A stretch of 64,000 bases of DNA from Clostridia bacterium (GTDB taxonomy: Bacteria > Bacillota > Clostridia > Oscillospirales > Acutalibacteraceae). The DNA lies in the NCBI GenBank assembly GCA_017517665.1, contig JAFWYP010000054.1, positions 62,001-126,000 of the forward strand, given 5' to 3'. The notes beneath the pieces are model-generated. The model saw nothing but the letters and a program-made list of their open reading frames with translations, was not told the origin of the DNA and made no database searches. Positions 22,901 through 26,333 of the stretch are shown here, in pieces (the first letter of the stretch is position 1; the number at the start of each line of letters is the position of its first letter). A program made the position numbers and the translations under genes.

Positions 22901-23791
22901 TTATCCCATGAAAACTCTTTTAATTTCAAGGCAGTCTTTCTGTCCGATTTCACCTATCCCGATGAAATTTCCGTTCGGGTCATAAACTCTGAAAAATCCG
23001 AGCATACGGGGATATTTCAGTCTTTCAAGCGATAATTCTCCGCCGTTTCTGAAGCGTTTTGCCTGCGCCTCGGAAACTTTTATAACGGGATATTCTTCAA
23101 GTGCACGGTCAACGGGAATGAGCAAATCAAAGATTTTTCCGCTGTTTACGGCTTCTTCAAGCTGTTCAAGGGTTACGGCGTTTTCAATTTCAAAGCCGTT
23201 TGCCTTTGTGCGGCGCAAATCTGTCATAACCGCACCGCAGCCGAGCGCTTCTCCCAAATCAGAAATGAGCGTTCTTATATATGTTCCCGATGAGCATTCA
23301 ACCAGAATTACATATTCGCCCGCTTCTTCGTTTTCCGAGAGAACATCAATCGAAAAAACAGTTACCTGCCTTGATTTTCTTTCAACCTCAATACCCTGCC
23401 TTGCGAGGTCATAGAGCCGCTGTCCGTTAACTGAAACTGCCGAATACATGGGCGGAAGCTGATTTATATCACCGATAAAATCATTGATTTTTTCTTTCAC
23501 TTCTTTCGCGGTTACATTAACTTCTCTTGTTTCAAGGATTTTGCCCGTTATGTCGAGAGTGTCGGTTGTTGTTCCAAGACGGAACAAAGCGCGGTAAGCC
23601 TTGTTATGGCTCGGGAGAAGCTCGATAAATCGGGTTGCACCGCCGAGCATAACCGTCAGAACACCGGTTGCCATGGGGTCAAGAGTGCCGGTGTGTCCGC
23701 ATTTTTTCTCGCCGCAGATTCTGCGCACTCTTGCAACCGCACCGAACGAGGTTATGTCTTTCGGTTTATCAAGAAGAATAATTCCTGTCAT
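22901..23791 (-). CDS. truB: tRNA pseudouridine(55) synthase
   Basis: TruB makes the universal pseudouridine at position 55 in the T-loop of tRNA. The 296-residue protein has the catalytic motif GHTGTLDPMATGVL with the nucleophile Asp38, and a PUA-like C-terminus. The length fits the bacterial form. In most Firmicutes truB follows rbfA and nrnA, but here that operon is about 4 kb away and truB instead sits 12 bases after a sortase-domain gene. Confidence 0.95.
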   Translation of the reverse strand: MTGIILLDKPKDITSFGAVARVRRICGEKKCGHTGTLDPMATGVLTVMLGGATRFIELLPSHNKAYRALFRLGTTTDTLDITGKILETREVNVTAKEVKEKINDFIGDINQLPPMYSAVSVNGQRLYDLARQGIEVERKSRQVTVFSIDVLSENEEAGEYVILVECSSGTYIRTLISDLGEALGCGAVMTDLRRTKANGFEIENAVTLEQLEEAVNSGKIFDLLIPVDRALEEYPVIKVSEAQAKRFRNGGELSLERLKYPRMLGFFRVYDPNGNFIGIGEIGQKDCLEIKRVFMG

Positions 23792-23802
23792 ATAAAACCT
23801 TT

Positions 23803-25659
23803 CTAATCGTTAAACAAATTTATATCGTCTTTATAAGGATTTTTTTCGCCTTTGGCATCGTAATAAGCCTGCGGAAGTTTGGGACTTGGGTTCATAACCG
23901 CAAGAGAAGTGTCAACGGCGGGGCTTTCTCCTTCGCGGAGAAGTCTGCCCACAACAACAAGCCTTGCATCCGAAAAATCGTAACAGCAGGTTGAAAGAGT
24001 CAGAATTCTATCCGAGGGATTGATATCAACACCTGTTGTGTAAAATTTTCTCTTGTCAATTTCCGCAATATAGTTTGCAAAGTTTTCGTCGGGTGTATTC
24101 GTAAAAATGAAGTTCAGGAAATTGCCGTTATCGTCATCTCTGTCGCTGTTCGAGATGAAAGTGGCATAAATCTTGAAGGTGTAATCGCCGTAAAGAGTGC
24201 TCATGCCGATTATGGGTGCTCTTGCAAAACCTTCAACCGTGCGGTACTGCTCGAGAGTGCCGAAAATCTTATCGTCACGGCGCATATTGTGACCGAAAAT
24301 TATCGTATTGCGGTCGAGAGAATGGAGAGAATTTCTTGAATCAAAAAACGGAACACCGTATGATGTTGTATTACCGTAGAAATCTTTACGCTCATATTCT
24401 TTGTTGTCTTTTCCCTGAACAACGGCATAGTTTATATTCATATCAGGGATTGATATCCAGCCTGCAAAATCGCGGTTTGCCGCATAAAGGTCGGCAAATG
24501 CAGGGTTCATGCCCGAGGGGAAATCAATGTCGGGGTGTTTGCTTTTTATCTCCTGCCACGGGTCAACGGAGTTATCGGACAGCGTGGTTTGTATCATTGA
24601 AACGATATCCGATGACTGCTTTGATTCTTTATACGGTTCGATAACATAGCTGTTCAGCAGTATTCCGCCGCTGACGATGAAGCACAAAACAGCAAATGCA
24701 AGTGTCAGTCTGCGAACGATTTCGGAACGCGGAAGCTTTTCCGATGTGGGCTTTCCGCCTCTCAATGCGGCATAAAATTCTTCGGTATTTGCGTATCTTT
24801 CGGACTTGTCGAGTGCAAGACCTTTTTCTATAACAGCTCTTTCTTTTTCGGGAAATCCCGCAGGAAACCGCAGCTTTCTTCCCTCTGCTCTCTGTGCCGC
24901 GTTTGGAGGAAGGAAGCCTGTTACCGCTTCATAGAGTATCGCGGAAACAGCATACACATCCGTAAACGGACCGCACTCCTTTGCACCGAGCTGTTTTTCG
25001 GGTGCATCAAAAGGAGAATATGCATTTTTCGGGGGATATGTATATCCCGTAACCGAGGAAATTTTTCCGTTTTCCGTTAATATCGAATACGGAGAAACCG
25101 AGCCGTGCCATTTTCCGACTTTTTCGAGTGCCGAAGTGCATTTAAATAAAGGCTCGAGCATTCTGACAGCCTTTGAAAACGAAACGGTTTTTCCGTTACC
25201 TATGAGAGATGAAAGGGGAGTACCGTTATCAATGGAATTGACAAAATAAAAGGTTGAATTTTCCGCAAAGCAATCCGTGAAATTCAATGCGGTTTTTTCG
25301 GAAGCGGTGCAGAGTTTTTTATAGTGAGTATAATATACGGCAATTTCCTTATCGACTTGTGCGAGGCATTGCTCATTGTGGTATTTTATAATCAGTTCGC
25401 CTGTGTGGCGGTAGACAAGCTTTTCATTCAGATATTCGGTAATCCTGACTCTTTGCGAAGTTTTTGTGTCGAAGGCATAATACGAAACAAAAACTTTTTC
25501 TTTTGAGAAAACTCCGCCGAGAACATAGCGGTTATTGAGCTTTGTGCCCGTGGGCAGGCAGTTTCTGAACTGCTTTTCCATAACTCCGCCGAAACCGCAG
25601 ACGGTGCATGACTCCGAATTTTCGGGACATTCGCTCATGCAATAAATACAGCGTTTCAT
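23803..25659 (-). CDS. Zinc-ribbon, pseudokinase, transmembrane and class B sortase fusion
   Basis: The 618-residue protein has four parts. Residues 1-25 form a zinc ribbon with two cysteine pairs (CIYC and CTVCGF). Residues 35-300 resemble the clostridial Ser/Thr kinase fold, including GPFTDVYAVSAILYEAVTG, but the catalytic residues are missing: HRD is HGS (185-187), DFG is TGY (204-206), and the VAIK lysine position reads RITE. It should be a pseudokinase. A single membrane helix spans about 318-340. The outer part is a class B sortase with His457 in IIFGHNM, Cys558 in TLSTC and Arg566 in DARLVVVGR. The intact triad suggests an active transpeptidase with a cytoplasmic sensor. truB follows at 12 bases. 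No obvious sorting-substrate gene is adjacent. Confidence 0.9.
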   Translation of the reverse strand: MKRCIYCMSECPENSESCTVCGFGGVMEKQFRNCLPTGTKLNNRYVLGGVFSKEKVFVSYYAFDTKTSQRVRITEYLNEKLVYRHTGELIIKYHNEQCLAQVDKEIAVYYTHYKKLCTASEKTALNFTDCFAENSTFYFVNSIDNGTPLSSLIGNGKTVSFSKAVRMLEPLFKCTSALEKVGKWHGSVSPYSILTENGKISSVTGYTYPPKNAYSPFDAPEKQLGAKECGPFTDVYAVSAILYEAVTGFLPPNAAQRAEGRKLRFPAGFPEKERAVIEKGLALDKSERYANTEEFYAALRGGKPTSEKLPRSEIVRRLTLAFAVLCFIVSGGILLNSYVIEPYKESKQSSDIVSMIQTTLSDNSVDPWQEIKSKHPDIDFPSGMNPAFADLYAANRDFAGWISIPDMNINYAVVQGKDNKEYERKDFYGNTTSYGVPFFDSRNSLHSLDRNTIIFGHNMRRDDKIFGTLEQYRTVEGFARAPIIGMSTLYGDYTFKIYATFISNSDRDDDNGNFLNFIFTNTPDENFANYIAEIDKRKFYTTGVDINPSDRILTLSTCCYDFSDARLVVVGRLLREGESPAVDTSLAVMNPSPKLPQAYYDAKGEKNPYKDDINLFND

Positions 25660-25751
25660 ATTAGCCTCCTTTCCGGTGAATAAACTGTGAGTTGAAAAAT
25701 GAAAAATATTATGATATTATTGATATACTAACTTTTTAATGGTGATTATAT

Positions 25752-26333
25752 ATGAAAAACGGATTTTTTGCAATGGTTTCAAGAATGAAATATATAAACC
25801 GCTGGGCGCTCATGAGAAATGAACACAGCGAGAATTTGTGCGAACACAGCTTTGAGGTTGCCTCAATTGCGCACGCTCTTGCAATTATCGGAAACCGCCG
25901 TTTCGGCAAGAATCTCAACGGTGAAAGAGCCGCATTTCTCGGACTTTATCACGATACGCCCGAAACCCTGACCGGCGATATGCCCACTCCCGTCAAGTAT
26001 TACAGCGACGAGGTGCGACTTGCATATAAGACGGTTGAGGAAAATGCCTGCAAGAGTCTTATTGATATGCTACCCGAGGATTTCCGTGAGGATTATAAGT
26101 CGGCGCTTATTCCCGAAAAAAAGGATGCAGAGCTATGGAAACTCGTGAAAGCGGCGGATAAAATCAGCGCGCTTATCAAGTGCATCGAAGAAAAAAAGGC
26201 GGGCAACAGCGAATTTGTTAAGGCGGGCGAGGGTCTGCGCGAAGCTGTTGAAAAGCTTGATTTGCCCGAAGCAAAGGTTTTCATTGAAGAATTTCTGCCC
26301 GCATACGAAATGACCCTTGATGAATTAAGATAA
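25752..26333 (+). CDS. yfbR: YfbR-like 5'-deoxynucleotidase (HD domain)
   Basis: The 193-residue protein matches YfbR, an HD-domain phosphatase that removes the phosphate from deoxynucleoside 5'-monophosphates. The metal ligands are His32 in EHS and His67-Asp68 in LYHDTPE. The family motifs RWALMRNEHSEN and LTGDMPTPVKYY are both present. The length is typical. The gene diverges from the sortase fusion and converges on the amidohydrolase gene, with only 2 bases between the stops and no terminator seen. Confidence 0.9.
   Translation: MKNGFFAMVSRMKYINRWALMRNEHSENLCEHSFEVASIAHALAIIGNRRFGKNLNGERAAFLGLYHDTPETLTGDMPTPVKYYSDEVRLAYKTVEENACKSLIDMLPEDFREDYKSALIPEKKDAELWKLVKAADKISALIKCIEEKKAGNSEFVKAGEGLREAVEKLDLPEAKVFIEEFLPAYEMTLDELR

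Follow-up and report, generated by a model that had tools for sequence, protein, structure and literature searches.

The gene described here encodes a zinc ribbon, a kinase-like domain, a membrane helix and a class B sortase in one 618-codon open frame without internal stop (Table 1). It lies in a 64,000-nucleotide stretch of the genome of a Clostridia bacterium, hereafter the window, and all of these parts, proposed in a first-pass annotation of that stretch, were found. Our interpretation, which we hold tentatively and with a little less than even confidence, is that the protein is a membrane-anchored class B sortase whose dead kinase end serves as a non-catalytic docking or dimerization module. 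Each half is of a familiar type. The literature searched, which lay largely outside subscription journals, yielded no report of a kinase–sortase fusion.

Table 1. Features of the fusion gene and its neighbors (window coordinates)
Feature	Position	Strand	Remarks
Whole gene	23803..25659	-	618 aa: zinc ribbon, pseudokinase, membrane helix, class B sortase
Ribosome-binding site AGGAGG	25665..25670	-	Shortly 5' of the fusion-gene ATG; from sequence
Zinc ribbon	25585..25659	-	Residues 1-25; C4, C7, C11, C18, C21
Pseudokinase domain	24751..25554	-	Residues 36-303
Degenerate catalytic loop HGSVSPYS (HRDxxxxN position)	25084..25107	-	Residues 185-192
Membrane-spanning helix	24646..24720	-	About residues 314-338; sequence and predicted helix 311-360
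Class B sortase domain	23935..24519	-	Residues 381-575
Sortase catalytic His457	24289..24291	-	
Sortase catalytic Cys558	23986..23988	-	
Sortase catalytic Arg566	23962..23964	-	
Conserved C-terminal extension past the sortase fold	23806..23934	-	Residues 576-618; PKxPQAYYD...NPY
truB	22901..23791	-	11 bases 3' of the fusion gene, same strand
yfbR-like 5'-deoxynucleotidase	25752..26333	+	Divergent neighbor of the fusion gene

The putative zinc ribbon has two CxxC knuckles, C4/C7 and C18/C21, and an extra conserved cysteine, C11; all five cysteines are retained in 15 of 16 relatives. In the predicted structure, a single continuous helix of 50 residues (311–360) contains the membrane segment and runs from the kinase to the stalk of the sortase. 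Among the loci compared, each with 1.5 kb of flank, truB is next to the fusion in two cases, the window and L004. A yfbR gene adjoins 7 of the 12 complete fusions (that of the window and six of the 11 others) and all four N-lobe-only forms described below, and is absent from the 1.5 kb flanks of L009–L012 and L014. The neighboring genes point to no pathway.

A Pfam scan of the 618-residue protein returned the sortase as its sole match (1.4e-11), leaving the kinase part unrecognized. A sequence search of solved structures matched residues 28–295 to the kinase PpkA (9.4e-11), and structure prediction recovered the two-lobed fold of Hanks-type Ser/Thr kinases. The catalytic residues of the active enzymes are gone. 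In the window protein, VRIT stands in place of VAIK, HGSVSPYS in place of HRDxxxxN and VTGY in place of IDFG, confirming the degenerate motifs noted earlier (RITE, HGS and TGY). Twelve fused kinases were aligned with six active-looking zinc-ribbon kinases, five of them from the genus and the sixth from the window's own genome. The VAIK lysine is replaced in all 12 (T in four, S in three, Y in three, A and F in one each), as are the HRD aspartate (S in seven, C in three, G and A in one each) and the catalytic asparagine (S in 10, T and H in one each). The HRD arginine is invariably glycine, and the αC glutamate and the DFG aspartate are missing throughout; at the latter position MAFFT places a glycine, and a shift by one residue brings in Thr or Ser, neither register having an aspartate. 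The Gly-rich loop is lost and the activation segment shortened, while the structural residues (the HRD histidine, the APE glutamate, the F-helix aspartate and the subdomain XI arginine) stay in 12/12. A thirteenth fused kinase, from G001 and cut by a contig end, reads HGA in place of HRD. No relative with an active kinase was found in the same fusion. As judged from these motifs, the fused kinase is catalytically dead wherever relatives retain it; an active kinase with odd motifs was considered and is ruled out by the same alignment.

The sortase half looks active. Residues 389–573 match class B sortases of solved structure (2.3e-30), and a class B β-barrel is predicted. The NCBIfam class B model TIGR03064 covers residues 320–569 at 142.9 bits, below its cut-off of 153.75, so that the class assignment is carried by fold and triad. 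His457, Cys558 and Arg566 are all present, as the first-pass annotation had it. Across the relatives, His457 and Cys558 are invariant (16/16), and Arg566 is kept in 13/16, the exceptions being Ser in L006, Asn in L007 and Lys in L012; Lys or Met also occupies this position in some of the acidic-tailed paralogues introduced below. None of the three findings that the first-pass annotation would have counted as a refutation was made: the same fusion with an active kinase, a frameshift joining two genes, or loss of the triad in most relatives (it is intact in 13/16). The C-terminal extension recurs in the acidic-tailed paralogues and, in part, in L089.

Forty-five genomes of the genus were searched for relatives. 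The full form (ribbon, both lobes and sortase) is present in 11, the window genome included; the ten others carry full-length orthologues at 60–79% identity, which makes the fusion more than chance. G015 has pseudokinase and sortase without the ribbon, and G001 has a near-copy of this ribbon-less form on a contig that ends after the membrane helix. Four genomes (G014, G033, G031 and G006) keep ribbon, N-lobe and sortase, with the C-lobe deleted. Since the C-lobe is missing from four orthologues and the ribbon from one, or from two if the cut G001 is counted, no single complete inner module is essential, as far as sequence comparison can tell. In the remaining 28 genomes no such gene was found. 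Completeness is 90% or more for 10 of them; many of these genomes therefore probably lack the gene in truth, and it is dispensable.

The structure of one N-lobe-only form, L016, was modeled as well. The alignment behind the first structure model, that of the window protein, had 15 paralogous kinase rows misplaced onto the sortase past residue 188; the second model, that of L016, was made from a sequence set without them. N-lobe strands and helix are predicted to fold (block pLDDT mostly 90 or more, model mean 88.5), and Foldseek matched the N-lobe to the kinase PpkA (E 2.3e-4, 106 columns). The VIA-align rows for this model were filled by sortases; the kinase match comes from Foldseek.

Beyond the genus, no fusion was found in a sample of 394 genomes of the order (E ≤ 1e-30) or of 391 genomes of the class (E ≤ 1e-55), with at most three candidates scored per genome; the two samples overlap, and both include the window genome. 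Genome contigs were also scanned with two peptide patterns, which divergent forms may escape. The 46 pattern stretches yielded 12 loci, all in Clostridia or Oscillospiraceae MAGs, with a ruminant gut sample as source for 10 of them and the source unstated for SIG555 and SIG586. Viral contigs gave 24 pattern stretches and no relative, and 22 phage records matched part of the protein, none spanning 80% of it.

In eight full-length pairs, dN/dS (NG86) was 0.05–0.24 for the N-lobe, 0.07–0.23 for the C-lobe and 0.03–0.12 for the sortase. Most of these ratios are rough, as seven of the eight pairs have a dS of some 0.8 or above in lobes and sortase. The closest pair, L009–L011 (dS 0.38–0.72), agrees with the others, at 0.05, 0.07 and 0.03, respectively. 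The N-lobe remnants of two N-lobe-only pairs gave looser values, 0.32 and 0.56. Among the 11 full forms, mean identity was 0.73 for residues 181–226 (the former catalytic and activation segment), 0.75 for the F helix and 0.76 for the sortase, compared with 0.62 for the whole kinase; the linker ahead of the membrane helix was poorly conserved (0.32). Conservation within the kinase is highest in the F helix and the former active-site segment. Segment 181–226 is conserved without being exceptional: 21 of 222 overlapping stretches of equal length match or beat it. These values indicate that the pseudokinase domain is under selection in full-length forms.

By sequence, the dead kinase, predicted to be cytoplasmic, is a relative of the genus's zinc-ribbon Ser/Thr kinase receptors. 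It aligns with 17 of these (L069–L085) at 26–31% identity over most of residues 1–305, in the same motif frame, and has their order of ribbon, kinase, membrane helix and outer domain. It also has their LPxGT...RY kinase entry and, by eye, their pattern of a variable outer part. It differs in having a sortase as that outer part, in the loss of all catalytic residues checked and in forming a clade of its own on a long branch. Five of the 17 paralogues look active (L071, L072, L076, L079 and L085) and twelve are degenerate: L069, L070, L073–L075, L077 and L078 have one outer region in common, by eye, and L080–L084 are a second type, with HRG for HRD in all five. PASTA repeats are present in the outer part of both zinc-ribbon kinases scanned, L076 and L084. 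Further matches of this kind, similar to L080–L084 and roughly 570–670 residues long, are listed for about 40 of the 45 genomes of the genus. A 1286-residue frame of the window genome (contig C44; L108 and L110) combines a first kinase domain that reads HRD and DFG with a second one that reads HGN.

The 16 relatives group as a single clade (100/99) in a tree of 50 sortase domains, where they are joined at 90/89 to the 11 acidic-tailed sortases of the genus (100/99). Within the clade of relatives, the four N-lobe-only forms group together (100/100), as do the full forms (80/89), and the fork among these two and G015 is without resolution. The 12 fused kinases likewise group together in the kinase tree (100/100), where long branches mean that the donor paralogue cannot be named. 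On the simplest history, one sortase copy would have acquired a zinc-ribbon kinase once, and the C-lobe and the ribbon would each have been lost once afterwards.

What might the sortase anchor, and what might the inner part bind? The first-pass annotation had suggested looking for SPxTG- or NPxTN-like tails in the same genomes. Three proteins of the window genome carry an IPSTGS or IPETGS tail. A profile built on the three tails picked up a fourth protein, with PADTGS, giving four candidate sorting signals at E ≤ 1e-4. The same model, built from the window genome's own three tails, found one or more matches in each of the 45 genomes of the genus (E ≤ 1e-4). The signals are therefore independent of the fused sortase, and comparing its presence with theirs gave no useful contrast. 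In the window genome, TIGR03063 (srtB_target) gave three matches, all sub-threshold, and PF00746 (Gram_pos_anchor) eight, two of them above the cut-off. A rough filter for protein tails, applied across the window, returned two matches, neither convincing, and by that measure the earlier statement that no substrate gene sits next to the fusion held. The window genome also encodes two active-looking Ser/Thr kinases (L106 and L107) and has five FHA matches; these proteins are possible partners of the inner part.

The known class B sortases of C. difficile (SrtB, 5gyj), B. anthracis (SrtB, 2oqw) and S. aureus (SrtB) have the fold, the His/Cys/Arg triad and an N-terminal membrane anchor in common with the fusion, which adds about 310 cytoplasmic residues and the conserved C-terminal extension; the fusion family also departs from them in the replaced arginine (3/16) and in the window protein's TIGR03064 score just under cut-off. 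For the inner half, the nearest precedents are other envelope proteins. MviN of Mycobacterium tuberculosis is a MurJ-type membrane protein. Its pseudokinase tail is phosphorylated and recruits FhaA, according to a review (PMC12599244). It is comparable to the fusion as a cell-envelope membrane protein with a recruiting pseudokinase, but the enzyme is different, and MviN has a pseudokinase of the ActPs3 family and a carbohydrate-binding domain (PMC12599244). EssB/YukC of type VII secretion is, in the same review, a Firmicute membrane protein with a cytoplasmic pseudokinase scaffold, like the fusion (PMC12599244); it has no sortase and belongs to a secretion machine. The review names seven families that are wholly or largely pseudokinases, and its main text contains neither the word zinc nor the word sortase (PMC12599244).

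If the dead kinase is a docking module, zinc ribbon and N-lobe would be the minimal docking unit and the former active-site groove a binding surface. The inner part would keep the sortase beside a partner or in a given place, for example with an active Ser/Thr kinase, an FHA protein or the machinery of the cell wall. In this way it would determine the site or the time at which surface proteins bearing IPxTGS-type tails become anchored. Several observations are consistent with this: the prediction of both folds, the loss of catalytic but not structural residues, the low dN/dS on both lobes, the above-average conservation of segment 181–226 and the single sortase clade. So are the four yfbR-adjoining orthologues that keep the N-lobe without the C-lobe (the modeled one folding its N-lobe), the active-looking kinases, FHA matches and sorting signals of the genome, and the precedents of MviN and EssB (PMC12599244). 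Against it stand the loss of the C-lobe in 4/16 relatives and of the ribbon in one, the looser dN/dS of the remnants, the dispensability of the gene, sorting signals in 45/45 genomes, the loss of Arg566 in 3/16 and the uninformative neighbors.

Its main rival, which we consider doubtful, is that the pseudokinase is a tolerated tail, a decaying accessory for targeting, stability, folding or membrane insertion. The closest paralogues do have acidic, disordered-looking tails, some sortases of other genera carry CinA or decayed CinA-like domains (see below), and N-lobe-only and ribbon-less orthologues exist; yet both lobes of the full-length forms are under purifying selection, and the kinase is best conserved at its former active-site segment and F helix. 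A narrower version of docking, put forward in the first-pass annotation, is inside-out signaling, in which binding of a cytoplasmic ligand or phosphorylated partner to the pseudokinase would turn the sortase on or off across the membrane. The conserved pseudo-active-site segment, the predicted helix linking kinase to sortase stalk and the outer PASTA repeats of the related L076 and L084 would fit such a switch, but four relatives have lost the C-lobe, half of any switch, and the linker preceding the helix is weakly conserved; we regard it as unlikely. Other chemistry on cytoplasmic proteins, AMP transfer or glutamylation in the style of SelO and SidJ, is known from other bacterial pseudokinases (PMC12599244) but is very improbable here, the active-site Lys, both Asp and the Asn being absent in 12/12 and the Gly-rich loop lost. 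That sequencing error or misassembly joined two genes is hardly credible: the window comes from a draft assembly of 68 contigs, but the frame is single and the same fusion recurs in eleven other genomes, ten with the full form and one without the zinc ribbon.

Sortases are commonly regarded as constitutive outer enzymes. With a conserved dead kinase inside, and decayed CinA-like domains at the same place in other sortases, regulated anchoring of surface proteins would become testable in gut Clostridia, and the C-lobe-free 'half kinase' offers a natural test of which part of the pseudokinase is required.

Inner domains were also found on other class B sortases, in a set of 40 loci selected in the main because their sortase frames were long; three of these loci come from the genus. 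CinA and sortase share one frame in 16 of the 40 (L086, L087, L088, L089, L090, L092, L093, L095, L098, L147, L148, L150, L152, L154, L156 and L157), as Pfam confirmed in the three scanned. These fusions occur in several families of the order, 10/16 in other families, and the literature searched held no report of one. Like the pseudokinase fusion, they (L086, L092, L148 and others) join a class B sortase to a large N-terminal enzyme domain in one polypeptide, with CinA replacing the kinase. Eight further sortases (L100, L153, L155, L158, L159, L162, L163 and L164) have an N-terminal domain whose profile matches the molybdopterin-type domain of CinA in hhalign (96.5%, E 8.7e-10), compared with 0.06% in a control run against the pseudokinase. 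Pfam left it unrecognized in the seven scanned, and it is probably a decayed CinA. Inner enzyme domains, some probably decayed, thus appear to recur on class B sortases of the order. The view that sortases normally have only short cytoplasmic tails does not hold as a rule in this order, since long acidic tails, CinA or decayed CinA-like domains occur on some of its class B sortases. More broadly, class B sortases of the order might be cytoplasmically controlled wall-anchoring enzymes, to which inner enzymes (kinase, CinA-type) were attached more than once and lost catalysis in several lineages while keeping a sensor or docking role. We think this rather unlikely; if true, events inside the cell would select the surface proteins that become anchored outside. 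In the window genome, a cinA gene is followed by the other two sortases, the short one first and the acidic-tailed one next, and then by a gene that by eye is SpoIID-like; this cinA (L104) is a separate gene immediately 5' of the sortase pair. Two of the sortases read, L102:4609-6096 and L089 (frame from 2362), are apparently dead, with His and Cys positions altered; L089 nevertheless has its CinA match along its length.
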